From positions 1,364,001-1,428,000 of the forward strand of contig NZ_CP063845.1 of NCBI RefSeq assembly GCF_021018745.1: 64,000 nt of DNA. Direction: 5' to 3'. The notes beneath the pieces are model-generated. The model saw only the letters and a program-made list of their open reading frames with translations. It made no database searches and was not told where the DNA came from. The stretch is from Gloeobacter morelensis MG652769. Lineage in GTDB: Bacteria > Cyanobacteriota > Cyanobacteriia > Gloeobacterales > Gloeobacteraceae. The translations under genes were made by a program, and so were the position numbers. Numbering within the stretch: position 1 is the first letter of the stretch; the number at the start of each line of letters is the position of its first letter. This document shows, one piece after another, positions 31,494 through 49,424 of this stretch.

Positions 31494-31613
31494 ATGGTCA
31501 AGCTCGTCATTTTGGTTATTGCCATCGCCTTTATTCCGCTGGCGCTGTTCTTTGCCACCCGCAACGGCTTCTACAACACCGATCGCTACCACGGCAACGG
31601 TTCCGCCCACTAG
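31494..31613 (+). CDS. 39-residue single-span membrane protein
   Basis: Too short for most gene finders. The ATG at 31494 reads MVKLVILVIAIAFIPLALFF, then ATRNGFYNTDRYHGNGSAH to the TAG at 31611-31613. One clear membrane helix (3-22) is followed by a short polar tail. The TAG overlaps the GTG of the dihydroorotase-like gene by one base, which supports a real, coupled ORF. It looks like a small subunit of a membrane complex such as a photosystem or NDH-1, but I cannot name the family. Confidence 0.65.
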   Translation: MVKLVILVIAIAFIPLALFFATRNGFYNTDRYHGNGSAH

Positions 31614-32836
31614 TGAGCCGCGTTCTCTTTCGGCAGGTCCGCAGACTCGATCCGGATACCGGGACCGACTCGATCGCCGATTGGCTCTGGGACAGTGCGA
31701 CAGGTCGGGCCGAGCGCGCGGGCGATCCCGCCGTCCGGGCCGACCGCGCGATCGATGGCGCCGGCCGCTTGATTCTTGCCCCGACCCTGTGCGATCTGTA
31801 CGTCCGCTCGGGCGAGCCGGGGCACGAGGAGCGCGAAGATCTCGCATCGCTCGCCGCGGCGGCGGCGGCCGGCGGCTACAGCCAGGTGGCGATTTTGCCC
31901 GACACCGAGCCGCCTGCCGACGACCCTGCCCAGGTCGATTTTCTGCGCAGGCATTTTCCTGCAGGACCGGTAGAAGCCCTGGTACTCGGGGCTGTCAGTC
32001 GCAATTGCGCAGGGGAAGCTCTGGCGGAAGTAAGCAGTTTGCTGGAGGCGGGTGTGGTCGGCTTTACCGACGCGAGGCCGCTTGCCAACTGGGCGCTGCT
32101 GAGGCGCTTTCTCGAGTACGCCGCGGTGCTGGAGCGGCCGGTGCTCGTCTGGCCCTGCTTTGCTCCACTGGCGACCGGGGTCGCCCTCGAAGGCGACTGG
32201 GCCATTCGCCTGGGGCTTGCGGGCCGTCCCGCCCAGGCTGAGAGCGTCGCCCTGGCCGGTGTGCTCGAACTGGTGCGCCTGACGGGCACAGCCGTGCACC
32301 TGATGCGCATCTCCACCGCCCGGTCCGTCGAGATGGTGGCACAGGCGAAGGCTGGCGGGCTGCCCGTCACCGCGAGTGCCACCGTTCATCATCTGGTCCA
32401 CGCGAGCCCCGATTTGGCCGAGTACGACCCGAACCTGCGCTTCGAGCCGCCCCTGGGCAACCCGGCGGACCGCGCGGCGCTGGTGGCCGCTCTGGAGGCG
32501 GGGATCATCGACGCGGTCGCCTCCGACCATACCCCCTGGACCTACGAAGAGAAGACGCTCCCCTTTTCCCAGGCTCCCCCCGGCGCCATCGCCCTCGAAC
32601 TGGTTCTACCGCTGGTGTGGAATCTGGTGCGCGAGGGCCAAATTACCCCTTTGCGCGCCTGGGAAGCCCTCAGCAGCGCACCGCGCCGCATCCTGGCGCT
32701 CGCACATCCCCTGGCGCTCGTGCTCTTCGACCCGGACAAGAGCTGGGTTCCCGGAACTGACACCCTCCACAGCCGCTCGCTGGCAACCGCCTGGCTGGGC
32801 CGCTCGGTGCAGGGCAGGGTGCTCGAAATCTTCTGA
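31613..32836 (+). CDS. Dihydroorotase-like protein lacking metal ligands
   Basis: 407 residues, class I dihydroorotase fold. Where active enzymes have DxHVHLREPG, this one reads DLYVRSGEPG, so both N-terminal metal-binding His and the substrate Arg are missing; MPNT is LPDT. Later parts (VTASATVHHLVH, VASDHTP) are better kept. It is thus probably inactive as a dihydroorotase and may serve as a structural partner, like pseudo-DHOases that support aspartate transcarbamoylase. GTG start at 31613, overlapping the 39-residue gene. Confidence 0.8.
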   Translation: MSRVLFRQVRRLDPDTGTDSIADWLWDSATGRAERAGDPAVRADRAIDGAGRLILAPTLCDLYVRSGEPGHEEREDLASLAAAAAAGGYSQVAILPDTEPPADDPAQVDFLRRHFPAGPVEALVLGAVSRNCAGEALAEVSSLLEAGVVGFTDARPLANWALLRRFLEYAAVLERPVLVWPCFAPLATGVALEGDWAIRLGLAGRPAQAESVALAGVLELVRLTGTAVHLMRISTARSVEMVAQAKAGGLPVTASATVHHLVHASPDLAEYDPNLRFEPPLGNPADRAALVAALEAGIIDAVASDHTPWTYEEKTLPFSQAPPGAIALELVLPLVWNLVREGQITPLRAWEALSSAPRRILALAHPLALVLFDPDKSWVPGTDTLHSRSLATAWLGRSVQGRVLEIF

Positions 32837-32871
32837 TTGCACCTGCGAATATCAATGCACGCAAACCCACC

Positions 32872-33357
32872 CTATTTCGGCCGAAAATTCAGTTTGATCT
32901 TGTGAGCGAATTGGTCTTTGGAACTTCCACCCACGATGATCTGGACTGCCGCTTCCTGGGTGATTTCGATACCGATATCGATACTGGCGCCATCCAGCTT
33001 GAACAGTGGTAAAGCCGCCCGCCGAGCCTGATCCATGGCAGCCGACAGCTCAAAGATTTTCTGCGCCAACTGCTCACTGGGCTCTTTGCCCAGTTCCAGA
33101 ATGCCCGCCGAGGGCACCAGGGTCAAAACAAACTCGTACACCCTGGCTCCTGTCCGCTCCATCGAAGCCTTGATCGGCATGAAGGCGACATCAAAGTCTC
33201 CTCCTGCCTTTGCTTTGATCTCTTCGACAAGCTTCAAATGCAGTTGCGCCGACTGCAGCACGATTCCCAACTCTTGATTGCTGCGCCTGCGCACGATCGC
33301 CAGGGCTTCTTGGATTTGTTCGATCAGTTGAACAACCTGTGCGTCCAGTTCCGCCAT
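32872..33357 (-). CDS. Trypco2 (trypsin-co-occurring)-like domain protein
   Basis: 161 residues. The first 70 form a helical region (LDAQVVQLIEQIQEALAIVR). The last 40 (IDIGIEITQEAAVQIIVGG, then KIKLNFRP) resemble the beta-strand Trypco2 domain found beside proteases in prokaryotic conflict systems. I chose ATG 33357 because GGAGGAG lies upstream; the TTG at 33390 is weaker. Third gene of a three-gene minus-strand operon behind a caspase-like protease, so it is probably the sensor, adaptor or substrate. The domain assignment is from pattern memory. Confidence 0.6.
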   Translation of the reverse strand: MAELDAQVVQLIEQIQEALAIVRRRSNQELGIVLQSAQLHLKLVEEIKAKAGGDFDVAFMPIKASMERTGARVYEFVLTLVPSAGILELGKEPSEQLAQKIFELSAAMDQARRAALPLFKLDGASIDIGIEITQEAAVQIIVGGSSKDQFAHKIKLNFRPK

Positions 33358-33415
33358 CGAATAACTTTTGCTCCTCCAGCACTTGGGCAAAGACCTTTAG
33401 GGGCACCCCATCCCA

Positions 33416-34036
33416 TCAAGGAACGTACCGAATTCTCTGTTTGTTGTTGTTTGCCACATAGGCCGCCTGGATGGCGTTTCTGCGGTATTTGAGTTTGCCC
33501 TGGCTAAAGGCGTTGCTCAACCTGTCCCACTCACCCGCTAGATTGTTGACAACCCTGACAGCAGGATCTCCTTGGACAAAGGCAGCTACAGAGTCAATGA
33601 CGACATCACGAAACGCGTTTTCATTGTCCTTCTCAAAACCAAAGGGTTGATCGTAGCCGATGTACTCGCCACAGTTAAATCGATTAGCGTAAGCCGCCCC
33701 CAAGCCGGTCACAGACCAGCAGCAGCAGGCGTAGATCTTGCGACCCCTCAAAATATGGACCGAAGCGCTGTCGACCAGCGGTATCGATGGGCGGTTACCT
33801 AGAGCCGGCAGCGCAATCCATTCATTCTGCAGACCATGTCCAAAGTAGACGACATAGTCGACGCACTCGACAGCATCCTGCAAAGACAAGCCTCCCCTAC
33901 ACAAGGCTGTTCCGTCGAGCAACAGACAAATATGGCCCAAGCCGATCAGATCCTCCTGCAACTTGGAAGCCCACGTACTGGTGGACTGGGAGCCGCAGTC
34001 GTAGTTTGTCGTCAGGACAAGCACACTCGCCGCCAT
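33416..34036 (-). CDS. Caspase/CHAT-like cysteine protease
   Basis: 206 residues with a Rossmann-like alternation of strands and helices. YVVYFGHGLQ holds the likely catalytic H67 and IYACCCWSVTGLG the likely nucleophile (one of C104-C106), the spacing and context of CHAT/caspase-like peptidases (GHG then ACxS). After the Cys come GLGAAYANRF and GEYIGYDQPF, as in the family. It is much smaller than most CHAT proteins and has no repeat or sensor domain attached. Its neighbours, 2 bp upstream and 25-58 bp downstream, make a compact operon. Confidence 0.68.
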   Translation of the reverse strand: MAASVLVLTTNYDCGSQSTSTWASKLQEDLIGLGHICLLLDGTALCRGGLSLQDAVECVDYVVYFGHGLQNEWIALPALGNRPSIPLVDSASVHILRGRKIYACCCWSVTGLGAAYANRFNCGEYIGYDQPFGFEKDNENAFRDVVIDSVAAFVQGDPAVRVVNNLAGEWDRLSNAFSQGKLKYRRNAIQAAYVANNNKQRIRYVP

Positions 34037-34038
34037 CC

Positions 34039-34320
34039 CTACCCGTTCGCCTTGATAGCGCGCGCGACCGCATCGACAGGCCGTTCCTCGGCTCGTCGCG
34101 CCTGTGCGAATAAAAATTGCAAAAAGCCCAGACCGAATTCGGTGCGCTTTTCGACTTCATAAAAAAACTCGACAGGTGTCAGTGTTCGTCCCATCTCGAT
34201 CAAAAAAGGCCGCTCCGACCTGGGATGGCCGTAAGCCCATTCACGCAGGTAACTGAGAACACCTTCAAGTTCGTCGGGATCAAATTGTGCCTCGTCGTAA
34301 CCAGGAAAATCGTAGGTCAT
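34039..34320 (-). CDS. Small protein leading the caspase-like operon
   Basis: 93 residues, family not recognised. Acidic N-terminus (YDFPGYDEAQFDPDELEGVL) and a helical C-terminal half (GLGFLQFLFAQARRAEERPV). The stop lies 2 bp before the protease gene, so the two are translated together. The position fits a regulator, inhibitor or target of the protease. No signal peptide. Confidence 0.6.
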   Translation of the reverse strand: MTYDFPGYDEAQFDPDELEGVLSYLREWAYGHPRSERPFLIEMGRTLTPVEFFYEVEKRTEFGLGFLQFLFAQARRAEERPVDAVARAIKANG

Positions 34321-34362
34321 GGTCTTCTATCGCTCCACAGCCGGCAGACCGTAGAACAAAGC

Positions 34363-34396
34363 TACCACAAGCGCCAAGATGCCCTTCTTTGTGGTA
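34363..34396. repeat. Inverted repeat between alr and the caspase-like operon
   Basis: TACCACAA and TTGTGGTA, 8-bp perfect arms separated by 18 bp, lie between the alr stop and the start of the small ORF. It could end alr transcription or act as an operator for the downstream operon. Confidence 0.4.
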
Positions 34397-34407
34397 ACTG
34401 GCGGTTG

Positions 34408-35553
34408 CTAAACGTTAAAGACCGGTGCTGTGGAGCGCACTACCCGCGGCAGGCGGTGCTTAAAGCCGCAGAGGATTTCATAAGCAATAGTACCCAGGGG
34501 GTCGGCCCAGTCGGCGGCGCCGATTGCTTCATTGCCGTCGTGGCCCAGCAGCGTCACCACATCGCCCTCATCTACCGCGCCCAGGTGGGTGCAGTCAATA
34601 ACGATCTGGTCCATGGTGATCGCCCCTACCTGGGGAGCCCGTCTCCCGTGCACCAGCACCTGCAGTTGGCCCGAGAGCCGCCGCGGCACCCCGTCGGCGT
34701 AGCCGATGGCGACGGTGGCCAGGCGGCTCGGGGCCGGGGTGCGCCAGAAGTGGCCATAGCTCACGCCGGTGTCCGCCGGCACTTCCCGCACCTGGGTGAC
34801 CCGCGCCCTGACCTGCATCACCGGCCGCAGTTCGGCGGCTCCATAAAATTCGGGGGCGGGGTAGAGGCCGTAGAGGGCCATACCCACGCGCACCAGGTCG
34901 TAGTGTAATCCGGGATCGCCCAGGGCGGCGGCGGAATTGGCCAGGTGCACACACTTGGGCCGCACCCCGGCGGCTTCCAGTTCGCCCAGCACCCGCTCGA
35001 AGCGGCGGTGTTGCTCGCCCAGGGCGGCGGAGTCCGGCTCATCGGCGGTGGCCAGGTGCGAGTAGACCGAGGCAATTTGCAATCGGGGTAGCCGGTAGGC
35101 CAGGCGCACAAATTCGACGGCCTCCTGCCAGGGTGCGCCCAGGCGGGTCATGCCCGTGTCGATTTTGAGGTGCACCGGATGGGGAGCACTCAGGTGTTCC
35201 GCGCAGACGAGCACCTGGCGCGGCGTGCACAAGGTCGGTTCCAACCGCCAGTGTTCGACGGCGGCAACTTCGGCGCCGGTGTGGATGGGTCCCAGAACGA
35301 CGATCGGGCAACCCAAACCGGCCGAGCGCAACTGCGCACCTTCTTCGAGGGTGGCCACCCCCAGGCAGGCGGCCCCCGCCTCCAGGGCGGCGCGGCTGGC
35401 ACTGAGGGCGCCGTGGCCGTAGGCGTCGGCTTTGACCACCGCCATCACCCGGCAATGGGGCTGCAATCTTTGTCCAATTTGTTGAACATTGTGCCTGAGG
35501 GCATCGAGATCGATTTCCACCCAGGCGCGCCGCGTCGCATCAAACCCGTCCAC
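34408..35553 (-). CDS. alr: Alanine racemase
   Basis: 381 residues, a PLP-dependent fold III racemase that makes D-alanine for peptidoglycan. The PLP-binding Lys is K41 in VVKADAYGHG. The second catalytic Tyr lies in GVSYGHFWRT, and AIGYADGVPR, MDQIVIDC and the C-terminal AYEILCGFKHRLPR are all typical. ATG at 35553; length is normal. The same strand carries the caspase-like operon downstream, but a 87-bp gap with an inverted repeat separates them. Confidence 0.95.
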   Translation of the reverse strand: MDGFDATRRAWVEIDLDALRHNVQQIGQRLQPHCRVMAVVKADAYGHGALSASRAALEAGAACLGVATLEEGAQLRSAGLGCPIVVLGPIHTGAEVAAVEHWRLEPTLCTPRQVLVCAEHLSAPHPVHLKIDTGMTRLGAPWQEAVEFVRLAYRLPRLQIASVYSHLATADEPDSAALGEQHRRFERVLGELEAAGVRPKCVHLANSAAALGDPGLHYDLVRVGMALYGLYPAPEFYGAAELRPVMQVRARVTQVREVPADTGVSYGHFWRTPAPSRLATVAIGYADGVPRRLSGQLQVLVHGRRAPQVGAITMDQIVIDCTHLGAVDEGDVVTLLGHDGNEAIGAADWADPLGTIAYEILCGFKHRLPRVVRSTAPVFNV

Positions 35554-36830: not shown

Positions 36831-37889
36831 ATGCCCCTCAAGCTCTGCCTGTACAGCTCCGCCCACGGCTTCGGCCATACCACCCGGCTTCTGGCGGTGG
36901 CCAGCCGCCTGCGCGCGATCGAACCCCAGGCGCGCATCGTGCTGCATTCCCATGTGCCCGACTGGCTGGTCGCGGTGCACATGGACGCGGGCCTCGAGCG
37001 GCGCGGCACGCTCCTCGATGTCGGGCTGGTCCAATCCGACAGCTTCACCACCGACCGGGAGGCCACCCTCGATCGCATTCGAGCGCTCCAGGCGCGCTCG
37101 GAGGCGCTGGTGCGCGCCGAGCGCGAATGGCTGGCGCAAGAAAATTTTGATATCGTCCTGGCGGACATTCCGCCGCTAGCAGGCAGGCTTGCGGACGCAA
37201 AGCGGCCGGTGTGGGGCATGAGCAACTTCGGCTGGGACTTTATCTACCGCCATATCGAAGACGAACGCTTCGCGCCGCTGGCCGCCTGGTCCGCCCAACT
37301 CTACCGCGGGTACTCGGGATTATTCCGGTTGCCCTTTGCCGAGGCGATGGCTGCCTTTGCTGCCGTCGAGCCGGTGCCCCTGGTGGTCAACGAGGCGCGC
37401 TTCGGGCGCGACCACGTCCGCCACAGGCTCGGGATCGCCCCCGATCGGCCCACCGCCTTGCTGACCTTCGGCGGTTTGGGGATGACCGCTTTTCCGGCTG
37501 AGCGGGTGGCCGAGCACCCCGACTGGCAGTTCGTGGTCACCGCCGCCGCTCCTCCGGCCCCGAACCTCACGATGGTCGAACCGGGCGCCTGGCGGCTTAT
37601 CGAACTACTGACGGCGGTGGACCTGGCCATCATCAAACCCGGCTACAGCACCGTCGCCGAGTGCTGCGCCCTCGGTTTGCCGGTGGTCTGCCTCACCCGG
37701 CCGGGATTCGCCGAGGCGGACCTGCTCATCGACGGCATGTCGCGCCTGCTCGATTGCCGCGTGCTCACCACCGAAGCGTTCTTGGCGCAGAGGTGGGATT
37801 TTCTGGACGGCTCGCTCGCTTGTCGTCCGCCGGTCCTGGCCCAGGGCGCCCAACGGGTGGCCGAATGTCTGCTTGCCGTGGTGCGCTGA
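36831..37889 (+). CDS. MurG/UGT-like glycosyltransferase family protein
   Basis: 352 residues, GT-B fold. The N-terminal half starts with LKLCLYSSAHGFGHTTRLLAVA (shown as parts: LCLYSSAHGFGHTTR). The C-terminal half has ALLTFGGLGM and DLAIIKPGYSTVAECCALGLPVV, the donor-binding region of UGT/MurG-like enzymes. The donor and acceptor are unknown. A short palindrome (ACCCT-AAA-AGGGT, 36803-36815) lies just before the start. Confidence 0.82.
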   Translation: MPLKLCLYSSAHGFGHTTRLLAVASRLRAIEPQARIVLHSHVPDWLVAVHMDAGLERRGTLLDVGLVQSDSFTTDREATLDRIRALQARSEALVRAEREWLAQENFDIVLADIPPLAGRLADAKRPVWGMSNFGWDFIYRHIEDERFAPLAAWSAQLYRGYSGLFRLPFAEAMAAFAAVEPVPLVVNEARFGRDHVRHRLGIAPDRPTALLTFGGLGMTAFPAERVAEHPDWQFVVTAAAPPAPNLTMVEPGAWRLIELLTAVDLAIIKPGYSTVAECCALGLPVVCLTRPGFAEADLLIDGMSRLLDCRVLTTEAFLAQRWDFLDGSLACRPPVLAQGAQRVAECLLAVVR

Positions 37890-39290: not shown

Positions 39291-40289
39291 ATGCCGATGC
39301 CTTCCGCGCGCCAGTTCGAGCGTTTGATGAGGATGGACGAGTGGATTCGTAGCGGCCAGGCGCGCAGCATCGGGCAACTCGCTCAAAAGCTCGAAGTCAG
39401 TCCGAGGACCATCAGCACCGACACCGATTTTTTGCGCGATCAGCTCAAAGCACCGCTGGAGTTTGAACGGGGAGGTCGAGGCTGGTATTACACAGATCCC
39501 CAGTGGAGACTGCCGCTGGTGCCCCTCAGCGAGGGGGAACTGTTTGCCCTCGTTTTGGGAAGCCGCATGCTCGAAGCGGCGGCGGGGGCAGCCTATTCCC
39601 AGGAGTTGCAGTCCGCTATCGATCGGTTGGTGCGGCGGATGCCCGATCAAACCTGGGCGGACTTGCAGACGATCGTCGAAGAGCGCATCCAGTTCGGCTC
39701 CGGGGGCCTTATCGATCTCAATCCCGAAGTCTGGCGCAAACTCACCGAGGCAAGCCAGGCCAATCGCGTGGTCGAGATGACCTACTTTACCGCCTCGCGC
39801 AACAGCCTCTCGACTCGCAAATTTAACCCATATTTGCTGTACGTCTACCGTGGTACCAACCCCTACGCCATCGGCTACTGCCACCAGAGAAAGGAAATCC
39901 GTTACTTCCGGGTCGATCGCATCCGCGGGCTGTACCTGAGCGAGGAGCGCTTCGAGCGAGAGCCCGGCTTCAGCGCTCGGGAGTACCTCAACCTGGTCTT
40001 TCAAGTTGAAGCGGGCGGGCAGCCGCAACCGGTCGCCGTGCGCTTCAACGCCAAAGTGGCACCGTACATTCGGGAGCGGCGCTGGCACCGGACCCAGCAG
40101 ATCGATGAGCACGGCGACGGTTCGCTGACTTTGCGCATGGAGGTGCCGGGTCTGGCGGAGGTGAAGCGCTGGGTGATGGGCTACGGCGGCGATGCCGTCA
40201 TCGAGGAACCGGCCGAACTGGTGGCGATGATCAGCCAGGAGATTGCCAAAATGGCGGCGCACTACCACCAGGTGCGCCCGTCGTTGTAA
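39291..40289 (+). CDS. WYL-domain transcriptional regulator
   Basis: 332 residues: an N-terminal winged helix of DeoR type (SIGQLAQKLEVSPRTISTD, about 26-44), a central linker and a WYL domain (RKFNPYLLYVYRGTNPYAIGY, in parts NPYLLYVYRG and NPYAIGYCH; then YFRVDRIRGL), and a C-terminal WCX-like extension. WYL regulators bind ligands or nucleic acids and often control CRISPR-Cas and phage-defence operons in cyanobacteria. It is the first gene of the defence island, about 2.8 kb upstream of cas6, so it may regulate it. Confidence 0.87.
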   Translation: MPMPSARQFERLMRMDEWIRSGQARSIGQLAQKLEVSPRTISTDTDFLRDQLKAPLEFERGGRGWYYTDPQWRLPLVPLSEGELFALVLGSRMLEAAAGAAYSQELQSAIDRLVRRMPDQTWADLQTIVEERIQFGSGGLIDLNPEVWRKLTEASQANRVVEMTYFTASRNSLSTRKFNPYLLYVYRGTNPYAIGYCHQRKEIRYFRVDRIRGLYLSEERFEREPGFSAREYLNLVFQVEAGGQPQPVAVRFNAKVAPYIRERRWHRTQQIDEHGDGSLTLRMEVPGLAEVKRWVMGYGGDAVIEEPAELVAMISQEIAKMAAHYHQVRPSL

Positions 40290-40341
40290 GTGAGGCCTAT
40301 CCGGTGGACAATTGCACTAAGGGTTTCTAACGGTACCGACG

Positions 40342-41130
40342 ATGACCACCCTTCTTGCACCCATCACCTATCCGAGTGGAGACGGACTGCCCGTGGCGGA
40401 GACTTTCGTGCACCTCTACGCCATACTCACCACCCTCGAAGTGCTCAAGCAATACCTCGAAGGACAACAAGCCACCGTCCTCGCCAACCAGTTTCTCTAC
40501 TACGCGCCGGGCGTGCCCACCGCCCGGGTGGCGCCCGACGTGATGGTCATCTTCGGCGTGGCACCGGGAGGCCGCGACAATTACAAAACCTGGGAAGAGG
40601 GGCAGGTACCTGCGATCATTTTCGAAGTCACCTCGGCAGCCACGCAAAAAAAAGACCAGGGAGACAAGAAGACCCTCTACGCTCTGCTGGGCGTTCGTGA
40701 ATACTGGCTGTTCGATCCCAGGGGTGAATGGATCCCGCAAAGACTCCAGGGCAATCGCTTGGAAAACTTCATCGAGGAGGGCGAACCGGTCAACCGCTAC
40801 GCTCCCATCCAGGACGGCATCAGTCAGCCCCTCGGCTTGCGGTTGCAGGTCGAAGACGACCTCATCGGTTTTTACCGGCTGGACAATGGCCAGAAGCTGC
40901 TCATCCCGGCAGAACTTGCCTCAGAACTGCGCTCCACCGCCGCCCGTTTGGAACTGGAACAACAGGCCAGAATGCAGGCCGAACAACAAGCCGCGCAAGA
41001 GCAACAAGCCAGAATACAGGCCGAACAACAGGCCGCGCAAGAACGACTGGCCAGAATACAGGCCGAACAGAGGGCTGCCACCCTGGCTGAGCGTCTGCGC
41101 GAGTTGGGAATCGACCCGGAGCAGTTTTAA
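40342..41130 (+). CDS. Uma2 family endonuclease-like protein with long coiled-coil tail
   Basis: 262 residues. The Uma2 core (VAPDVMVIFGV, VPAIIFEVTSAATQKKDQ, LLGVREYWLFDP) is followed by a helical repeat at about 205-250 in which EQQARMQAEQQAAQ-type units recur three times before ERLRELGIDPEQF. The closest relative in the window is the gene at 15439, with the same tail end. Nuclease activity is a fold-based inference. The first of three intact Uma2 genes directly upstream of the CRISPR locus. Confidence 0.82.
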   Translation: MTTLLAPITYPSGDGLPVAETFVHLYAILTTLEVLKQYLEGQQATVLANQFLYYAPGVPTARVAPDVMVIFGVAPGGRDNYKTWEEGQVPAIIFEVTSAATQKKDQGDKKTLYALLGVREYWLFDPRGEWIPQRLQGNRLENFIEEGEPVNRYAPIQDGISQPLGLRLQVEDDLIGFYRLDNGQKLLIPAELASELRSTAARLELEQQARMQAEQQAAQEQQARIQAEQQAAQERLARIQAEQRAATLAERLRELGIDPEQF

Positions 41131-41177
41131 GGGCACCAAACCAAGAGTTGGATTTTGCAGCGCCGGAGCATCCAAAG

Positions 41178-41756
41178 GTGATCGCCAACCCCCAATCCCA
41201 ACCGATAGCACCCCTTGACTACTTGGCCTGGGAACTGCAGCAGCCCGGCCGGCACGAATACATCGACGGCCGCGTCCTGGCGATGACCGGGGCTTCGGCA
41301 GCCCACAACACCGTCCTCACCAATCTGAGCCGGGAATTGAGCAACCATCTGCGGGCCACCCCCTGCCGGGTATTCACCGCGGACATGAAAGTTCAGATAA
41401 CGGCGGAGGGGCCATTTTTTTACCCGGATGCCGCGGTGACCTGCAGCGAGCAGGACGACGAGGCCACCTACACCCTCAGCGAACCCTGTCTGATTGTCGA
41501 GGTGCTTTCGCCATCTACCGAAGCGTTCGATCGAGGCGCCAAGTTTGCTCATTATCGCCGCCTGAGTTCGTTGCAGGAGTATGTTCTCATCGACAGCCAG
41601 AGCGCCGGTGTCGAGTGCTTTCGGTCTGGCCCCGACCGTGAGCGGACCTGGATTTTGCAGTTATATGCTCCCGACTCCGAGCTTTTCTTCGAAAGCATCG
41701 ATCTCAAGCTGTCCATTGCCGCCATCTACGAAAAGGTCCGATTCTCAACTGCCTAG
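41178..41756 (+). CDS. Uma2 family endonuclease-like protein
   Basis: 192 residues from the GTG at 41178, which has CGGAG upstream; a TTG at 41148 would add ten. Typical core: YLAWELQQPGRHEYIDGRVL, MTGASAAHN, FYPDAAVTC, PCLIVEVLSPSTEAFDRGAK and LQEYVLIDS. The Asp and Glu of DAAV and IVEVLSPST are the PD-(D/E)XK positions. 47 bp after the preceding Uma2 gene and 28 bp before the next. Confidence 0.84.
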   Translation: MIANPQSQPIAPLDYLAWELQQPGRHEYIDGRVLAMTGASAAHNTVLTNLSRELSNHLRATPCRVFTADMKVQITAEGPFFYPDAAVTCSEQDDEATYTLSEPCLIVEVLSPSTEAFDRGAKFAHYRRLSSLQEYVLIDSQSAGVECFRSGPDRERTWILQLYAPDSELFFESIDLKLSIAAIYEKVRFSTA

Positions 41757-41784
41757 AATGATGACAGCACAGGGAGTTCAGGCG

Positions 41785-42396
41785 ATGGGTCCGATTCTCG
41801 AACAAGCTCAAAGAACTTGCATACATCTTCAGCTGCCGCCTGCTCTGCACCTCAGCGATGACCAGCTGTTTGAGCTTTGCCGGATCAATCGGGAGCTGCG
41901 CATCGAACGAACGGCTCTGGGGAATCTCATCATTATGTCGCCGACAGGCAGCGAGACAGGTGCCCGCAACGCCAGCCTCACCGGTCAACTTTGGCTGTGG
42001 AACCGTAGTACGCAGATGGGACAAGTGTTCGATTCCTCGTCAGGTTTCACTCTGCCCAACGGTGCTATGCGCTCTCCTGACGCCGCCTGGATCCGCCAGG
42101 ATCGCTGGGCTGCTTTGCACCCTGAACAAAAGAAAAAATTCGCTCCCATCACACCGGACTTTGTTGCAGAACTCAAGTCGCCCACCGATGACCTCGCCGA
42201 TCTCAAGGCCAAGATGCAGGAATACATCGACAACGGCGTGCTGCTTGGCTGGCTTCTAGATCCTGAGCAGCGCCAGGTGTGGATATACAGACCCGGGCTT
42301 GAAGCAGAAATCTTAAATAACCCTGTGTACATTTCTGACGCGCGATTACATGACTTCAAGCTTAAAACAGCGAGTGTTTTCTCCCAAACCACTTGA
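41785..42396 (+). CDS. Uma2 family endonuclease-like protein
   Basis: 203 residues. The ATG at 41785 has AGGGAG 8 nt upstream; earlier in-frame ATGs at 41758 and 41761 are less likely. Motifs: LSDDQLFELCRINRELRIER, SPTGSETGARNASL, RSPDAAWIR, DFVAELKSPTDDLADLKAKM and GVLLGWLLDP. The D of SPDAAW and E..K of VAELKSP complete the nuclease core. Third of three tandem Uma2 genes; after it base composition drops sharply in the gap before cas6. Confidence 0.85.
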   Translation: MGPILEQAQRTCIHLQLPPALHLSDDQLFELCRINRELRIERTALGNLIIMSPTGSETGARNASLTGQLWLWNRSTQMGQVFDSSSGFTLPNGAMRSPDAAWIRQDRWAALHPEQKKKFAPITPDFVAELKSPTDDLADLKAKMQEYIDNGVLLGWLLDPEQRQVWIYRPGLEAEILNNPVYISDARLHDFKLKTASVFSQTT

Positions 42397-42430
42397 TCCT
42401 ACGTAAAGAAAAGCCCTTTCCAAGATTCTG

Positions 42431-42534
42431 TATAATATAACTTTAGCCACTTCGGCGTTGAGCATCTGAGTGCAGCACAGAAGCGTTCTTAGAAGACGCT
42501 AGTAAAATCGGTGACGCCGTCAGGCGATACGCAA
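42431..42534 (+). ncRNA. Candidate crRNA-like regulatory RNA: two degenerate CRISPR repeats around one spacer
   Basis: A TATAAT box (42431-42436) precedes degenerate repeat 1, which keeps the 3' end of the array repeat: GGCGTTGAGCAT (42454-42465) against GGAGTTGAGCAC. A 33-nt spacer-like stretch (42466-42498) follows. Then comes degenerate repeat 2 (42499-42534), which matches the array repeat at 21 of 36 positions, including AATC-GTGAC-CCG and AGG. Its stem CGCC/GGCG differs from the array's CTCC/GGAG by a compensating base-pair swap. Thus the first repeat keeps the 5' handle part and the second the hairpin part, as a processed crRNA needs. Transcription is inferred. Confidence 0.6.
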
Positions 42535-42598
42535 ACAGAGTCTGCATCTGAATAATTAAATTTACTTTTTTATTCTCCGGCAGGTCGACTAATGGATC

Positions 42599-42661
42599 TT
42601 GACGGTCCGATCCAAAAAGTATAAGATGCTGAGAGCAGCGCAGAAAAGCTCTAAAGTCAAA
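42599..42661 (+). promoter_or_regulatory. Promoter with a putative Cascade target site over its start
   Basis: TTGACG (42599-42604), 17 bp, then TAAGAT (42622-42627) form a plausible promoter. From 42629 the sequence CTGAGAGCAGCGCAGAA matches the first 17 nt of the upstream mini-CRISPR spacer (CTGAGTGCAGCACAGAA) except at positions 6 and 12, the positions type I Cascade does not read. The 3 nt before it, ATG, would be the PAM. Binding here would block transcription of the small ORF at 42681 and possibly of cas6. Confidence 0.55.
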
Positions 42662-42680
42662 AACGTGACGGAGATAAACA

Positions 42681-42884
42681 ATGAATAACGAAGACTTGAA
42701 TTTTCACTTCCGCTTCTTGCTTGCAATTTTGTCCTACGCCTTGGCTCTGGAAAGCGAGAATCAATTGCTAGACGAAGAGGTTCGCAACTGCCAGCTCGAA
42801 ATTGCGAAATTGAGGGCTGCAGCCGACCCATCCCTACTTAATGACCTCCCTTCTCAAGAACAACGTTATGAGGAAAACTCCTAG
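42681..42884 (+). CDS. Small protein of unknown function between mini-CRISPR and cas6
   Basis: 67 residues with GGAG 9 nt before the ATG. A hydrophobic or amphipathic N-terminal helix (FHFRFLLAILSYALALESEN) leads into a coiled-coil-like acidic helix (LLDEEVRNCQLEIAKLRAA). Not recognised. It is the first gene behind the promoter that carries the putative Cascade target, so it holds the position of the toxin in CreTA modules. That role is inference. GC content is clearly lower than in the flanking genes. The 247 bp after it, up to cas6, hold no convincing gene. Confidence 0.5.
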   Translation: MNNEDLNFHFRFLLAILSYALALESENQLLDEEVRNCQLEIAKLRAAADPSLLNDLPSQEQRYEENS

Positions 42885-43131
42885 GCCAATTTGCAAATAC
42901 AAAGTTTTTTAATTCTTGCTCTCAGTTATGGCTTGAAGATTTTACGAAGTATCGCAACTATACCAGAGCGCGACATTCATCATCTTGGCCGAGGTTTCGA
43001 ACGGCGACACATTGACTCTTCGCAACCTTCATCAGCAGCTGTCATTTCTGCAAAAAAGTTGCAGACTCACACTGAAGCTCCATTGCAGACTCCCAACCCC
43101 AGAATAAAAATATTAAAGGAAAAAACCACCC
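42885..43131. other. cas6 upstream region
   Basis: No gene seen. TTGCAGACTC occurs twice, at 43059-43068 and 43083-43092, a 24-bp-spaced direct repeat close to the cas operon start that could be an operator, for example for the WYL regulator. AAAGGA precedes the cas6 ATG. A good -35/-10 pair was not found here. Confidence 0.45.
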
Positions 43132-43770
43132 ATGACGGTCGTAGAACTCGATTTCGCCGCTGTAGGCCACTCCCTTCCAGCCGATCACGGCTATGCCCTT
43201 TTCAGCGCATTAAGTGAAGTTGTCCCCAGCATCCACGAAGCCACCTGGCTCGGCATCCACACCCTTCCCGGCACCCGTGACGGCAAAGGCAATCTCACGC
43301 TGCCTCCGAAACCCAAGCTCTCCTTGCGCCTGCCCATGGAGTGGATCCCGACGGTCTACCCCCTGGCGGGCAAGAAAATCGTTGTGGGTAACCATCCGCT
43401 GCGGCTAGGCATCCCCCAGATCCGTATGCTCACTCCGGCCGAAACTCTCAGAGCGCGGCTAGTGACACTCAAGCTCGCGGGCTCCGAGGGCAAGATGGCG
43501 GAACCGATTTCTTTTTTGGAGGGCGTTCAGCGTCAACTGGAGGCGTTGAGTATCGGCGGCAAAGCCAGCCTCGAACCCGCTACCGACAGCAAGGGCCTCG
43601 ATTCCTACGCACGGCGGGTTCTGCGCATCAAGGGCACGGTTATCACCGGTTACGGTGTTTTGGTTTCCGGTCTAAACGATGAAGACTCGCTGAAGCTGCA
43701 GGCCGCCGGTATCGGTGGACGCCGTCGGATGGGCTGCGGCATTTTCGTGCCGGTGCGGGGGGGAGCATGA
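43132..43770 (+). CDS. cas6: CRISPR pre-crRNA endonuclease Cas6 (Cmx6-like, subtype I-MYXAN)
   Basis: 212 residues, RAMP fold. The C-terminal glycine-rich loop GIGGRRRMGCGIFVP (193-207) is characteristic. The N-terminal region (VGHSLPADHGYALFSALSEV, HEATWLGIHTLPG) is like the Cmx6/MYXAN form, which is shorter than common Cas6. It should cut the repeat RNA at the 3' side of its small hairpin (ACTCC-GGAA-GGAGT), leaving a handle of about 8 nt. Its TGA overlaps the cas3 ATG (ATGA). Confidence 0.9.
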   Translation: MTVVELDFAAVGHSLPADHGYALFSALSEVVPSIHEATWLGIHTLPGTRDGKGNLTLPPKPKLSLRLPMEWIPTVYPLAGKKIVVGNHPLRLGIPQIRMLTPAETLRARLVTLKLAGSEGKMAEPISFLEGVQRQLEALSIGGKASLEPATDSKGLDSYARRVLRIKGTVITGYGVLVSGLNDEDSLKLQAAGIGGRRRMGCGIFVPVRGGA

Positions 43771-46115
43771 GCGCTAATGCTGTAATGAACCAGCCTGCCC
43801 AACTGCTGGCAAAAAGCCGCAGATCGGGGCGGGAGCCTCTCACGCTTGAGCAGCACCTGCTTGATACCGAACTTGCTGCCCTGAAAATCTTTCGTCTGGA
43901 TGGCCGCTGGGGCAAAAACTGGTGTCGATTCTTCAAGATTCAGGACAACGAACAGCAGCAGCGGTTCTTGCTGCATCTGCGTCTCGCCGCTTTGTGGCAT
44001 GACATTGGCAAGGCCAACGAGGATTTTCTGAAGGCGGTGAGCAGTTCTAGCTTCTACCCGCAACTTTTGCGCCACGAACATCTCAGCGCTTTTATCCTGC
44101 ACACTCCGGAAGTACGCCGTTGGATGGGAAGCAATTTGGCTCTCAATCTGGAGGTGATCACCGCGGCGGTGCTCTCCCACCATCTCAAAGCCGAGCAGAA
44201 GGACGGCGACTGGACCTGGGGAAAGTTGCAGCGGCAAGGCTCACCAGTGCTGCGCCTTCACATGGAACACCCTGAAGTTCAGCGCATTCTCGAAAGGATT
44301 GCCGAAATCGCCGACCTATCGGCTCCTCCCACGCTCAGCCGCGCCAGTTGGTCAAACGATGGGTACTGGCAGCAGATCTGGAGAGCGGGAAAAGATGCAG
44401 CTACCGAATTCAGGCGTCAATTGCGCAAAGATAGCGAGCTGCAGAGCCTGCTCCTTGCCACCAAGGCGGGCTTAATCGCAGCCGATGCGGTCGCGTCGGG
44501 AGTCGTGCGCGTGGGGTGCGGTACTATCGAAGACTGGGTCAATCAGGTCGTACACGCCCGAGCACTCCAGCCTGAGGACATTGTCCGCGACATCCTCCAT
44601 CCCCGGGGTGAGCAGATTGCCAGAAGCAAAGGCAAGTTCGAGCTTCATCCCTTTCAAAAGCTGGCGGCATTGCGCGGTTCGCGTCTGTTGCTGCTGGCTG
44701 GTTGTGGAGTCGGCAAAACTCTAGCCGCATGGAAATGGACCGAAGAGCAAGCGCGCCTCCACCAGATTGGCCGGGTGATCTTTTTGTACCCGACACGGGG
44801 CACCGCCACCGAAGGGTTCAAAGATTACGTCGGCTGGGCTCCTGAGGCCGACGGAACATTGCTCACAGGCACTTCCGAATACGAACTCGAACAGATGCTC
44901 ACCAACCCAAGCGACGCCACCAAGGGCAAGAAGTTTCTTCCGGACGAGACTCAAGAACGCCTGTTTGCCCTGGGTTTTTGGCCGAAGCGCTACTTTAGCG
45001 CCACGGTGGACCAATTTCTCAGTTTCTTGGAGCACAGCTACTCGGGGGTATGCCTGCTACCGGCTCTGGCCGATAGCGCCGTAATCATCGACGAAGTCCA
45101 CAGCTTCGACCGGCAGATGTTTCGCAACTTGGTAAGTTTCCTGCAGCACTTTGAAGTGCCGGTGCTCTGTATGACCGCCACGCTGTCGAAGTCTCGCCGG
45201 GAAGAACTGCGCAGCCTTGGGCTGCAGGTGTTCCCGGATGGGGAAGACCGCAAGGCTCTCGAAGACTTGAACCGCAAGGAGGAGCACCTTCGCTACCGCA
45301 TCGAGCGCCACACTGGCGAGCCAGTTGCCCTCCAGGAAGCCCAAGCTGCCTATCGTGCGGGGCAGCGCGTCCTATGGGTAGTCAACACGGTCGATCGTTG
45401 CCAGAGACTTGCAAAACAACTGTCGGACGATTTGGGGATCGATGTGCTCACCTACCACAGCCGCTTTACGCTGCAGGATCGCCAGAAACGTCATGCCGCA
45501 GTCGTCGGCGCATTCAAGCAGATAGAAGAGCGAGCAATCGCCGTCACCACGCAAGTGTGTGAAATGAGTCTCGACCTCGACGCCGACATGCTCATCAGTG
45601 AACTGGCCCCGATCCCCGCCCTGGTACAGCGCGCCGGGCGGGCAAACCGCCACCTGGCACGCGGTGATCATTTTCTGGCGCGCATTCTGGTGTACGCACC
45701 GGAAGGGCACCGACCTTACACGCACAAGGATCTCGAGGACACCCGCCGCTTCCTCAACGATTTGGGGACTGCTCCTGTGAGCCAGCTGCGCATGGCGGAA
45801 CTGCTGGAAAAATATGGTCCAGAGGAAGCGCAGGCCGATGGCAGTTCCCGCTTTGTGGAGAGTGGATACTACGCGGTGCCGGGTTCGTTCCGCGACGAGG
45901 ACGACTTCACACTGCCGTGTGTGTTGAGCACCGATCTCGACTGCGAAGCACTGCAATCTTCCCGAAAGCGAGTTGGTTATCTGCTCAACGTTCCGAAGAA
46001 ATTTGCCGTGCTAGACGGGCCGCGCCCGAACTGGCTGCCAAAGTACATCGGCATTGCCGACGGCGGCAGGTACAGTGCCCAGCGCGGATTTCGTACCGAT
46101 GACAGGAGCTCGTGA
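43767..46115 (+). CDS. cas3: CRISPR-associated nuclease/helicase Cas3 with HD domain
   Basis: 782 residues. The N-terminal HD nuclease has H30, ALWHDIGKAN (H78, D79), LRHEHLSAF and LSHHLKAEQ. The SF2 helicase has Walker A LLAGCGVGKTLAAW (P-loop about 311-318), DEVH box with D442 in VIIDEVHSFD, LCMTATLSK and the late QVCEMSLDLDADMLISE / LVQRAGRANRH. It degrades target DNA after recruitment by Cascade. All key residues are present, so interference looks intact. Overlaps cas6 by 4 nt; cas8 starts 3 nt after. Confidence 0.93.
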   Translation: MSANAVMNQPAQLLAKSRRSGREPLTLEQHLLDTELAALKIFRLDGRWGKNWCRFFKIQDNEQQQRFLLHLRLAALWHDIGKANEDFLKAVSSSSFYPQLLRHEHLSAFILHTPEVRRWMGSNLALNLEVITAAVLSHHLKAEQKDGDWTWGKLQRQGSPVLRLHMEHPEVQRILERIAEIADLSAPPTLSRASWSNDGYWQQIWRAGKDAATEFRRQLRKDSELQSLLLATKAGLIAADAVASGVVRVGCGTIEDWVNQVVHARALQPEDIVRDILHPRGEQIARSKGKFELHPFQKLAALRGSRLLLLAGCGVGKTLAAWKWTEEQARLHQIGRVIFLYPTRGTATEGFKDYVGWAPEADGTLLTGTSEYELEQMLTNPSDATKGKKFLPDETQERLFALGFWPKRYFSATVDQFLSFLEHSYSGVCLLPALADSAVIIDEVHSFDRQMFRNLVSFLQHFEVPVLCMTATLSKSRREELRSLGLQVFPDGEDRKALEDLNRKEEHLRYRIERHTGEPVALQEAQAAYRAGQRVLWVVNTVDRCQRLAKQLSDDLGIDVLTYHSRFTLQDRQKRHAAVVGAFKQIEERAIAVTTQVCEMSLDLDADMLISELAPIPALVQRAGRANRHLARGDHFLARILVYAPEGHRPYTHKDLEDTRRFLNDLGTAPVSQLRMAELLEKYGPEEAQADGSSRFVESGYYAVPGSFRDEDDFTLPCVLSTDLDCEALQSSRKRVGYLLNVPKKFAVLDGPRPNWLPKYIGIADGGRYSAQRGFRTDDRSS

Positions 46116-46118
46116 ACC

Positions 46119-47795
46119 ATGGCAAAGAAAAAAACGGCGCAGACCGTGGATGTGCTGCACCTCGATTACCGGTTGGTTGAGTTGCCTTCCTCCCAGCACC
46201 GGGCCGGTCTGGCGGGGTTGGTGCTGATGCTCAACTGGCTCAAGCAACAGGGCAAGATCCGGGGAGTGTGCGAACTGACGGCCCTTGACGAATATGGTGC
46301 GAGCGTCCGGCTCGATTGCCTTGGCCTCGAAGCGCTCTTGGACGAGGTGTACGGAGCGAGCCGGGAAATTCAGGAGCGGACCCAGCCATTCAAGAACAAA
46401 AACAAAGAGATCGTGCCGCCTCTAGAGGAACGGGAGGTGAGCGTGACCGATCCTAGTAACGGCAAGGCCAAGCTCAAAAAAGTCTACCTGTATCCGGTGG
46501 TGGTTCCGCGCGGGTCGTTTCTGGCCGAACTGGACCCAACCAGCGACGGCAACCAGGGCCTGTGGATCAAACTTTGGCGGGATATGATTTGGGCCATTTT
46601 GCGAGGTGTTCCGGCGACCAGGGCACCTTTTGAAGCCCGTGCCGAAGGAAAGCCCGCCGACGACGCCCGCAAACTCTGGGAGCAACTAGTACAACCGGCA
46701 GAATTTACCGTTGATTTGCCGAGCACCTACTTTCTGGGAGCACAGGCCGCCAATGCCGATAACGTGCCCTTCTTTGACCGGGCACGCCTTCAGTTTCTGT
46801 TGCATTTCTGGCCGTTTTCCGCGCAGGTTTATGTTCCAGCCATTCTGGACAACGAGGGCAAACGGCAATTTGTAGGGTACGCCCTGGCGATTCCCGACGT
46901 TTGCCGGCTTGAAACTTTTTGTGAGGAGTTACCCTCTCTGCTGCGCGAGCGAAAAGGCGAGAAGTCCGGATATCGGCCCCGCGAAGCGGTGGTCTGTGTC
47001 GCCGTCGAGAGCGCCCTGGATGTTTGCCGCCGCTTGCGCGAGCGTCTCACCCAGATCGAGGGAGGCGGTTCCACTCGCGATCTGGTGATGGGCATCGACG
47101 TGCTGCATTTGGAGAAACAAGGCAACAGCGTCCGTTTGCTGGGCAGCACCCGGCTGGAACCGGAGGCGCAGATGGTAGATACCTACGCCCAACTGCGCGA
47201 TGTCCTCTGGAACGATCTCTTTCGGCGCCAGCAATTGCTCAATCTCGTCCAGCACCAACCCCGGTTTGCCGGATTCGATGCGCTACTCTCAACACTACCC
47301 ATCGAACAAACCTTCGGATCCAACACCTTCCGCCACGACGCCCGCCAATCCTTCAAATACGAGACCGACATGAACGAAGATACGTTGACAGAAGCGATCG
47401 AAACCATCCCCATTGAAGAAAACACCGAAGCTGTAAAGCAGCCTCTGAGTGAAGAAGAGCTGCTCTACCGATTGGTGCAGAGTTACCTGCTTGGCAAGCT
47501 GCAGAGCAAGTACCGTATGAAGTGGGACAAAGACCGCAAGCTACCTGTTCAAGGCAGCAATCCCATTTCTTTGGACGAATACCGCAAGGCCAAGGAGAAG
47601 ATCGCAAAAGACGCCTTTCTTGCAATTCGTAGCCGCACCGATCGTGAAGCTTTTATCGAATACTTTGTTGCGACCCTGTGCTCGGTGCCGCAGCGCTTTG
47701 GCCAGCAGTATTTTGTTGGCCTGGCCCGCGCCCTGGACCAGGAAACAGACCGTATTCGCACGCTGACAATGCTCGCCCTTTCTGCCCAAAGCTAA
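46119..47795 (+). CDS. cas8: CRISPR-associated Cascade large subunit Cmx8 (Cas8, subtype I-MYXAN)
   Basis: 558 residues. The start VLHLDYRLVELPSSQHRAGLAGLVLML (in parts LVELPSSQHRAGLAG) is the typical Cmx8 opening. It should recognise the PAM and hold the non-target strand in Cascade. Around residues 418-445 an acidic linker separates a C-terminal helical part of about 140 residues, the size of a Cas11 small subunit. No separate cas11 gene exists in the locus. Gene order cas6-cas3-cas8-cas7-cas5 fits I-MYXAN (DevTRS-like). Confidence 0.85.
   Translation: MAKKKTAQTVDVLHLDYRLVELPSSQHRAGLAGLVLMLNWLKQQGKIRGVCELTALDEYGASVRLDCLGLEALLDEVYGASREIQERTQPFKNKNKEIVPPLEEREVSVTDPSNGKAKLKKVYLYPVVVPRGSFLAELDPTSDGNQGLWIKLWRDMIWAILRGVPATRAPFEARAEGKPADDARKLWEQLVQPAEFTVDLPSTYFLGAQAANADNVPFFDRARLQFLLHFWPFSAQVYVPAILDNEGKRQFVGYALAIPDVCRLETFCEELPSLLRERKGEKSGYRPREAVVCVAVESALDVCRRLRERLTQIEGGGSTRDLVMGIDVLHLEKQGNSVRLLGSTRLEPEAQMVDTYAQLRDVLWNDLFRRQQLLNLVQHQPRFAGFDALLSTLPIEQTFGSNTFRHDARQSFKYETDMNEDTLTEAIETIPIEENTEAVKQPLSEEELLYRLVQSYLLGKLQSKYRMKWDKDRKLPVQGSNPISLDEYRKAKEKIAKDAFLAIRSRTDREAFIEYFVATLCSVPQRFGQQYFVGLARALDQETDRIRTLTMLALSAQS
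47370..47795 (+). CDS. Possible internal translation product: Cas11 small subunit within cas8
   Basis: An in-frame ATG at 47370 (Met418 of Cas8) would give 141 residues, the right size for Cas11. The stretch before it is unstructured or acidic, and the rest is mostly helical (ELLYRLVQSYLLGKLQSKYR, DEYRKAKEKIAKDAFLAI). Several type I systems without a cas11 gene make it from such internal starts. The Shine-Dalgarno here is weak (GAG 8 nt upstream), so this is a hypothesis. Confidence 0.35.
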   Translation: MNEDTLTEAIETIPIEENTEAVKQPLSEEELLYRLVQSYLLGKLQSKYRMKWDKDRKLPVQGSNPISLDEYRKAKEKIAKDAFLAIRSRTDREAFIEYFVATLCSVPQRFGQQYFVGLARALDQETDRIRTLTMLALSAQS

Positions 47796-47820
47796 ATTAC
47801 CAACAAACCTGAGGAACATC

Positions 47821-48720
47821 ATGAAGAATCTGTTCGCCACCGTCCTGACCTATGCCGCTCCCAGTTCCAATTACCGCGGCGAGAGCGAGGAGAACCGCAC
47901 CGTTTTGCAAAAGATTGCCAAGCAGGGAAAAGAGTACACCGTCATCAGCCCGGAATCGATGCGCAATGCCCTGCGCGAGATGCTGGCTGCAGGCGGTCTG
48001 CCTTGCAACCGTCGCCGCCTGCATGATCAGGACCAGCTCGCTGTTGAGTTCCAAGAGTTTCCGAATGCAACTAAATTTGCTGATGACTTTCTTTTTGGTT
48101 TCATGGTCGCCGACAACGACGCCATCAAAAAGAACAAACTGCTTCCCGCCAAGCGCGACAGTGTGCTGCGGATGAATCTGGCGGTGGCACTAGTCCCCTA
48201 CCGCTTCGACGCCACCTTTCACCAGTCGCCGCTCAACGCCGGAAAGAGTCCCTGGAAGAACGCTTCGACCTCGGCCCTGCTGCACCGGGAAATTGCGCAC
48301 ACGGCCTACCAGTACCCATTTGCACTTTCGCATACTGACTGCAGCCAGGGTCAAGGTTCCGAGTGGACGCTGAAACTGCTGGAGGCTATCGGACAGTTGA
48401 ACGATGTGGCCGGCGGACACGCCCGCAGCTATTACGAGATGGCACCGCGCAGCATTGTCGTGCGCCTTACCAACAGTCTGGTGGCTGGGTACGATACTTA
48501 CGGTTTTGACGACAAAGGCGGGTTTGCGGAGTTGCAGCGCATTCATCCTGACGATCTGCCCGGTGGGGAATTCTGGCTTGGCGGGGAAATCGTCCGCAAT
48601 CTGGACACAGCGCAGCGCGAGCGACTTGTCGCTCAGGGCGTGCATCTGTACGAAAATCCGCAGCGGCTGTTGCGCGATGTGGGACATGCCTTTCTGGGCA
48701 CCGAGGTAGCAGTTCGATGA
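47821..48720 (+). CDS. cas7: CRISPR-associated backbone protein Cas7 (DevR-like)
   Basis: 299 residues, Cas7/DevR family of RAMP proteins. Signatures: NLFATVLTYAAPSSNYRGES at the N-terminus, KQGKEYTVISPESMRNALRE, FADDFLFGFMV and AGGHARSYYEMAPRSIVVRLT (quoted in part). Six or so copies should coat the crRNA in Cascade. ATG at 47821 has GAGGAA upstream. The TGA overlaps the cas5 ATG by 4 nt. Confidence 0.9.
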   Translation: MKNLFATVLTYAAPSSNYRGESEENRTVLQKIAKQGKEYTVISPESMRNALREMLAAGGLPCNRRRLHDQDQLAVEFQEFPNATKFADDFLFGFMVADNDAIKKNKLLPAKRDSVLRMNLAVALVPYRFDATFHQSPLNAGKSPWKNASTSALLHREIAHTAYQYPFALSHTDCSQGQGSEWTLKLLEAIGQLNDVAGGHARSYYEMAPRSIVVRLTNSLVAGYDTYGFDDKGGFAELQRIHPDDLPGGEFWLGGEIVRNLDTAQRERLVAQGVHLYENPQRLLRDVGHAFLGTEVAVR

Positions 48721-49424
48721 AGACACTCTGGTTGCATGTGCGTGCTCCTTTTGCTGCCTTTCGAGCTTTTCAAGCGGGTGTGTATCGCTCGACGGCTCCG
48801 ATTATTCCCCCTTCGGCCGCCTATGGTCTGATACTCAACCTGGCCGGCATCGAGATGCGCCTGCCCACGGCCGGCCCGACCACCCTTATCCGCTCCGGTT
48901 TGCCAGCGCTACGCCTTGCCATCGGTGCGCACACTTCCGGTGAAGTCTGCTCGCTCTATCAGCAGCTGCACGGATACCCGGTGGGGGCGTCGGGCAAAGA
49001 ACTGGCACTTCGCACCCGCGGAGCAAAGTACTGGATTGCACCGGTGCGCAGGGAGTTGCTGGTCGGGCTGGACGTAGTACTGGGTGTGCAGAGCCCGGAC
49101 AGCACACTGCTGGAGCGGGTGGGACGCGGCCTGCGGGGCGAGTTGGAAGAAGTTCGCTACGGCCTGCCATTTGCAGGAGACAACAATTTCCTGTTTGATC
49201 GCATCGACATCCTGGCTGAGCCACCGGCAGTTCATTGGTACACCCGGCTTGGTCGGGACGACCCACCGCGCCGCGGCTCGTGCCGGTTGAGTGTGGCCAT
49301 CGACCGGGCAGACAACAGCCGCACCGTCAATCTGTTGTATGCGCCCGCATCCGAACCGACCCGAGAACCACCTGATCAGGCATGGACGTGGGCTCCCGTC
49401 GTTCCTGCTAACTTTGAGAGATAA
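48717..49424 (+). CDS. cas5: CRISPR-associated protein Cas5 (DevS-like)
   Basis: 235 residues. The N-terminal RAMP segment WLHVRAPFAAFRAFQAGVYRS, quoted in part, with STAPIIPPSAAYGLILNLAG matches the Cas5/DevS signature; ELLVGLDVVLGVQS and YGLPFAGDNNFLFDRI follow. It caps the crRNA 5' handle and contacts Cas8. It is the last gene of the interference block, before two inserted Uma2 genes. Confidence 0.88.
   Translation: MKTLWLHVRAPFAAFRAFQAGVYRSTAPIIPPSAAYGLILNLAGIEMRLPTAGPTTLIRSGLPALRLAIGAHTSGEVCSLYQQLHGYPVGASGKELALRTRGAKYWIAPVRRELLVGLDVVLGVQSPDSTLLERVGRGLRGELEEVRYGLPFAGDNNFLFDRIDILAEPPAVHWYTRLGRDDPPRRGSCRLSVAIDRADNSRTVNLLYAPASEPTREPPDQAWTWAPVVPANFER

Follow-up and report, generated by a model that had tools for sequence, protein, structure and literature searches.

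Trypco domains are known from conflict systems, where they are named for occurring next to peptidases (PMC7159879). The same paper describes VMAP ternary systems whose Trypco2 + trypsin modules place a Trypco2 protein beside a peptidase gene, and it gives Trypco1 and Trypco2 as mutually exclusive neighbours. It also describes, as System 4, a minimal pair of a small protein, EACC1, and a caspase, in which the gene for the small protein lies 5' of that for the protease. EACC1 contains a transmembrane helix, and the caspase of the pair bears fused effectors. A locus with Trypco2 and CHAT-TIR is likewise in print (PMC10907252). Three genes also make up the caspase operon of the caspase-nuclease system Canu (CanABC), which includes a pro-nuclease and a paracaspase having an Ig-like fold, and in which a partner protein is bound to the caspase (PMC12799240). 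Cyanobacterial metacaspases and orthocaspases have been surveyed too, and that survey lists four G. violaceus members, all WD40-fused, with no 206-aa protein resembling the one described below among them (PMC2853523).

The locus described here, a trio of genes A, B and C in Gloeobacter morelensis MG652769, resembles several of these systems in part. As in the VMAP modules, a Trypco2 protein (C) lies beside a candidate peptidase gene (B), but the scanned neighbours of the trio include no trypsin-like, MoxR or vWA gene, and C carries two Trypco-like halves. As in System 4, a small gene (A) lies 5' of the putative protease, although A lacks such a helix and B has no fused effector. Canu shares the three-gene organization, whereas no nuclease family was found in the trio, and with the orthocaspases B would have in common a candidate His-Cys protease.

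Gene order and surroundings

We analyzed a stretch of 64,000 nucleotides (contig NZ_CP063845.1, positions 1,364,001 to 1,428,000; hereafter the window) from a genome of 5.10 Mb in 3 contigs (G000). The features of the locus, in window coordinates, are as follows.

31613..32836, plus strand: gene that we take to be dihydroorotase-like, downstream of and convergent with the trio; no Pfam hit at E 0.01
32837..34407, no strand: additional segment, made up of the cassette and its flanks, that separates alr from the dihydroorotase-like gene; genome G195 (locus L025) has about 80 bp instead
32872..33357, minus strand: gene C, Trypco2-family by the PF19631 profile, with a second, weaker Trypco1/Trypco2-like half
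33416..34036, minus strand: gene B, 206 aa, candidate caspase/CHAT-like cysteine protease of putative fold; open reading frame with an 88% identical orthologue (L007 6887-7507)
33719..33721, minus strand: codon of Cys106 of B, candidate catalytic Cys in C-W-S, with Cys104 as the alternative; in some alignments it is matched to the Cys in the NAC-W-G of CHAT domains
33836..33838, minus strand: codon of His67 of B, candidate catalytic His in YFGHG, counted from the ATG at 34036
34039..34320, minus strand: gene A, small protein of no assigned family; open reading frame with a 95% identical orthologue (L007 6603-6890)
34408..35553, minus strand: alr (alanine racemase), upstream neighbour; Pfam PF01168 and PF00842

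The list of open reading frames has A (93 aa), B (206 aa) and C (161 aa) in a tight minus-strand array, with 2 bp between A and B and 58 bp between B and C. The latter distance is counted with the ATG start of C; an in-frame TTG at 33390 would instead give a protein of 172 aa. These lengths and gaps bear out the compact three-gene packing reported in an initial annotation of this DNA, and the two motifs that it had read in B are indeed present, YFGHG at residues 64-68 and ACCCWS at residues 103-108. No promoter-like match, Rfam match or repeat at the cassette ends was found; short repeats occur inside the genes only. Protein A matches none of the families of Pfam, NCBIfam, PADLOC or PHROGs above their cut-offs. 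Its maximum Kyte-Doolittle hydropathy over 19 residues is 0.50, so it has no membrane helix, and the conserved transmembrane helix of EACC1-type proteins is missing from it.

The immediate neighbours of the trio are housekeeping genes. When six flanking proteins between 28.9 and 37.9 kb were searched with Pfam, PhoD-like, FAA hydrolase, alr and cobW families were recovered and two proteins had no match; VMAP-type genes (MoxR AAA ATPase, vWA, VMAP) were absent from these six. The trypsin family was found neither in the trio proteins at E 5 nor in the flanking proteins scanned. The initial annotation had stated that no large sensor gene accompanies the trio, which holds for the flanking proteins scanned by Pfam. 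Two conserved genes of the window (31613-32836 and 36831-37889) appear by eye to be dihydroorotase-like and glycosyltransferase-like, respectively, with no Pfam match at E 0.01.

Some 9 kb from the trio there is a type I CRISPR-Cas locus, which places further defence genes in its vicinity. Positions 39291-49421 of the window hold a WYL-like regulator followed by the Type I-MYXAN/I-B genes cas6, cas3, cmx8/cas8b, cas7 and cas5, and a CRISPR array of about 66 repeats follows the cas genes (about 52996-57700). Within this array a 300-nt stretch, 54511-54810, is identical to 55448-55747, a duplication of several spacers. A short tandem array with the 12-nt unit CGGCCTTCCTCG occupies positions 58123-58182.

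Gene C and Trypco2 proteins in other genomes

Gene C scores 30.5 bits against the Pfam Trypco2 profile (PF19631; cut-off 24.2), and its orthologue in a second genome of the genus, G194, scores 37.3 bits. The score of C is the sum of two stretches, residues 1-82 alone giving 22.2 bits. The remainder of the protein reaches 17 bits with Trypco1, 13.8 with Trypco2 and 13.9 with Pepco, each under the cut-off; scored as a C-terminal half, it gives 15.9-17.6 bits with Trypco1 (PF19493) and 13.9-16.9 with Pepco (PF24393), missing the cut-offs of 24.6 and 27. A profile of our own, made from eight Trypco2 domains taken from other genomes, detected C (E 9e-6) and its orthologue (E 1.4e-6) among the open reading frames of 1.1 Mb. 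The protein is nevertheless near the margin of the family, since G000 fell short of E 0.001 in a genome-wide Trypco2 search. At the level of profile matches, C is thus confirmed as a Trypco2-family protein in both genomes: its earlier description as Trypco2-like stands, but the likeness to Trypco1 stays below the cut-off.

Trypco2 was detected in 4 of 146 genomes of the phylum and in 5 of 36 other genomes. Judged by eye, the readable Trypco2 loci mostly precede trypsin-like proteins (L008/L013, L009, L147, L149, L151 and L153). One locus (L010/L014, 5291-5970) has a 96-residue coiled-coil-like protein between the Trypco2 gene and the trypsin-like gene. A different arrangement is found in G042 (L012 6709-12007), where Trypco2 immediately precedes a CHAT-SIR2 gene that is followed by an nSTAND-WD40 gene, and in G572 (L211 12-6327), which has the same Trypco2 / CHAT-SIR2 / nSTAND order with domains judged by similarity. 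These two are the only cases among 30 CHAT loci with a Trypco2 gene in the available flanks. They show that the pairing of Trypco2 with CHAT is real in cyanobacteria, which supports the assignment of B indirectly, and the Trypco2 / CHAT-SIR2 / nSTAND locus is likely to be a conflict system in its own right. The trio has in common with it a Trypco2 protein beside a gene with a GHG...C motif pair, but the arrangements differ: in G042 and G572 the order begins with Trypco2, CHAT forms a fusion with SIR2 and nSTAND ends the locus, whereas in the window the Trypco2 gene is the last of the three, B stands alone as a 206-aa protein, there is no STAND partner and A is added. The link of the trio to conflict systems, which the initial annotation had drawn, is plausible.

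Apparent acquisition and constraint

Comparison within the genus indicates that the trio is kept as a unit. G194 has it between the same flanking genes, with 95% (A), 88% (B) and 96% (C) identity and all frames open; there A and B overlap by 4 nt. The trio is wholly absent from G195, in which the dihydroorotase-like gene and alr (95% and 88% identical to those of the window) are about 80 bp apart. Three further genomes, G196, G197 and G198, are uninformative about the ancestral state because alr was not found in the stretch beside their dihydroorotase-like gene. The GC content of A, B and C is 53-54% against 60-69% in six neighbours, and third-position GC is 54-65% against 78-84%. The trio therefore behaves as one acquired cassette, and it is apparently a discrete segment gained by horizontal transfer, judging from composition and the empty site. 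On account of its GC content, gain in the common ancestor of G000 and G194 is preferred over loss in G195, and is the simpler reading.

Outside these two genomes the trio was not recovered. B was searched in overlapping sets of 194, 39, 386 and 388 genomes, and true matches came only from G000 and G194; among the three other genomes of the genus in one of these searches, G194 alone had it. Single-sequence searches with A and C, in 188 genomes each, matched G000 only, in draws that did not list G194. Except for the trio's own gene, the loci that were fetched contained no relative of A, tblastn with A, B and C gave no match in plasmids, and peptide scans of genome contigs and of viral contigs confirmed 0 of 18 stretches in each. 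A motif scan found nothing in viral contigs and 75 stretches in genome contigs, including a large in-frame group whose translation reads as ketol-acid reductoisomerase; tblastn gave no relative among the 75. Weak matches to B were read individually, those in L034, L035, L037 and L038 excepted. We rejected L002/L029 as a multi-haem cytochrome-like protein, L144, L145 and L032 for their resemblance to periplasmic binding proteins, and L004, L030, L031, L033 and L036 because no common motif was seen in the sequence listed. Whether homologues are ever found together, the point on which the initial annotation would fall, thus has a divided answer: within the genus they are together in two genomes and jointly absent from one empty site, but outside it homologues of A and B were not found at all.

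Ratios of nonsynonymous to synonymous substitution between G000 and G194 (A 0.19, B 0.18 and C 0.31 by NG86; A 0.46, B 0.28 and C 0.36 by YN00) argue that all three are real genes under constraint. The silent divergence of B (33416-34036 against L007 6887-7507) stands far above that of neighbouring genes and of C, as if B alone had been exchanged. Its dS is 0.36 against 0.13-0.18 in neighbours (NG86, window against G194), 20 of its 87 fourfold sites have changed, compared with 122 of 1,292 across six neighbours (Fisher p 3e-4), and identity between the window and G194 drops to 0.87-0.90 over a block that coincides with B. We therefore regard B as a likely exchanged or fast-evolving allele.

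Two readings other than a conflict module bear on these data. Purifying selection on A, B and C and the housekeeping nature of the adjacent genes would suit an operon with a proteolytic role in Gloeobacter housekeeping or stress signalling and none in conflict; against this stand the patchy presence inside the genus, the low GC and the membership of C in Trypco2, and we consider such an operon very improbable. The cassette could otherwise be toxin-antitoxin-like or selfish, with B as a toxin and A and/or C as its neutraliser, kept for its own sake and not for defence. It is small, compact, apparently acquired, restricted to some genomes and lower in GC, A and B overlap in the orthologue, and the silent-site divergence of B is what exchange would produce, all of which would fit. 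We still give this explanation a small probability: no toxin or antitoxin family was found in Pfam, NCBIfam, PADLOC or PHROGs, and the family of C is tied to conflict systems, not to toxin-antitoxin pairs.

Gene B as a candidate protease

The case for B begins with its motifs. A His in GHG and a Cys in C-x-[SG], each after a hydrophobic strand, are present at the motif level. GHG and CCCWS are kept in G194, in which the preceding segment reads YCGHG instead of YFGHG (an F65/C difference), and the spacing from GHG to C-x-S is 39 residues against 40 in cyanobacterial ACWG-type CHATs. A strict form of the motif pair, its pattern written after B had been seen, arose in 2 of 200,000 shuffles and a loose form in 113. 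Six CHATs are encoded elsewhere in G000, and B is not among them.

Alignments give a mixed picture. An unconstrained MAFFT alignment of B with 20 CHAT domains has G66, H67 and C106 invariant in 22 of 22 rows, and H67 and C106 align with 26 L012-type CHATs in three MAFFT modes. With L172-type CHAT sets, Cys106 did not align with the CHAT Cys; alignments A5 and A9 of B with CHAT domains show no variation at G66, His67 or Cys106, while Cys106 is unaligned with the CHAT Cys in A6, A7 and A8, and it was misaligned in 5 of 15 trials of one series and 3 of 27 of another. Profile comparisons used CHAT sets of 26 of 30 loci and, for the non-TPR set, 20 of 21 sequences (L170 dropped). With hhalign, B against the non-TPR set peaks exactly at GHG and its score of 20.6 exceeds that of 60 of 60 shuffles, yet the probability is 2%; against TPR-CHAT, 49 of 60 shuffles score equally high. 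One CHAT profile placed B 52nd among the 623 scores reported for 1,144 scored sequences, at the level of shuffles, and with the other set (26 of 30 loci) B ranked 83rd/119th of 705, again among shuffles. Searches with B gave nothing significant among Pfam, NCBIfam, PADLOC, PHROG or PDB models, and at E 5 Pfam gives no CHAT (PF12770), caspase C14 or flavodoxin family. An hmmsearch of PDB sequences with alignment A4 returned two mitochondrial carriers at E 0.7, which we judged to be chance.

AlphaFold models of B are of low confidence, with pLDDT 34 from a two-sequence alignment and pLDDT 48 and pTM 0.47 from A9. As A9 was picked from trials for aligning His67 and Cys106, the model based on it leans to the caspase idea by construction. 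Its elements (E4-9, H19-32, E36-41, H52-57, E61-66 before H67, E100-105 before C106, H109-120 and H136-154) come in the order that a caspase core needs, and a fit to that core is plausible, if weakly supported. Searches with this weak model gave flavodoxins first: the best Foldseek matches are flavodoxins (E 9e-4), with caspase-11 at rank 30, and VIA-align also places flavodoxins first (Z 12.7), with no caspase in the best 50. Flavodoxin and caspase cores have a similar strand order, so at pLDDT 48 the flavodoxin match is itself weak.

These fold matches, with CHAT profile scores at shuffle level and no caspase or CHAT family match, are the argument that B is some other Rossmann-like protein, flavodoxin-like or nucleotide-binding for example, in which GHG and CCCWS coincide by chance; the cassette would still be acquired and Trypco-linked, with another effector or sensor. 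We consider this unlikely, since the matches come from a poor model whose strand order is also that of caspase cores, no flavodoxin family is matched in Pfam either, and the strict motif pair is rare in shuffles, even granting a post hoc pattern. B is therefore best described as a candidate caspase/CHAT-like cysteine protease, plausible but unproven. Of the initial proposal, the two motifs stand, and their spacing is right; significant profile matches and a good structure model do not accompany them.

A possible conflict module

We put at nearly even the prospect that the trio is a horizontally acquired, co-transcribed three-gene conflict module with B as protease, C as adaptor or regulator and A as sensor or inhibitor. 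Because a protease-like protein is paired with a Trypco-type partner of known conflict systems, the trio may serve defence or cell suicide in a pared-down form, and the minimal module proposed in the initial annotation is a fair inference. B would be a small caspase/CHAT-type cysteine protease with a dyad of His67 and Cys106 (or Cys104), and C, with its Trypco2 domain and Trypco-like second half, a non-enzymatic adaptor or regulator that holds or recruits B. A, whose translation would go along with that of B, would act as a small sensor or inhibitor. A signal of infection or stress might be sensed via A and/or C, upon which B would be released or clustered; active B would then cleave host or phage proteins, and growth would stop.

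A more specific proposal, which we hold tentatively and think somewhat unlikely, is an undescribed minimal abortive-infection module, in which a lone 206-residue protease B, of a new and diverged caspase-like family, would be gated directly by a tandem-Trypco C together with a new partner of 93 residues. Such a module would do without an NTPase, sensor repeats or a fused effector, and it has so far been seen only in Gloeobacter. A literature search of titles and opening abstracts returned no description of an A-B-C trio. According to published descriptions, Trypco conflict systems are large, driven by NTPases and found mostly in multicellular bacteria, and Gloeobacter is an early-branching, unicellular cyanobacterium. 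As the Trypco domain is defined by neighbourhood alone, a system of three genes and about 1.4 kb would offer the simplest setting in which to study how such a domain acts on its protease, with the Trypco2 / CHAT-SIR2 / nSTAND loci as a comparison set.
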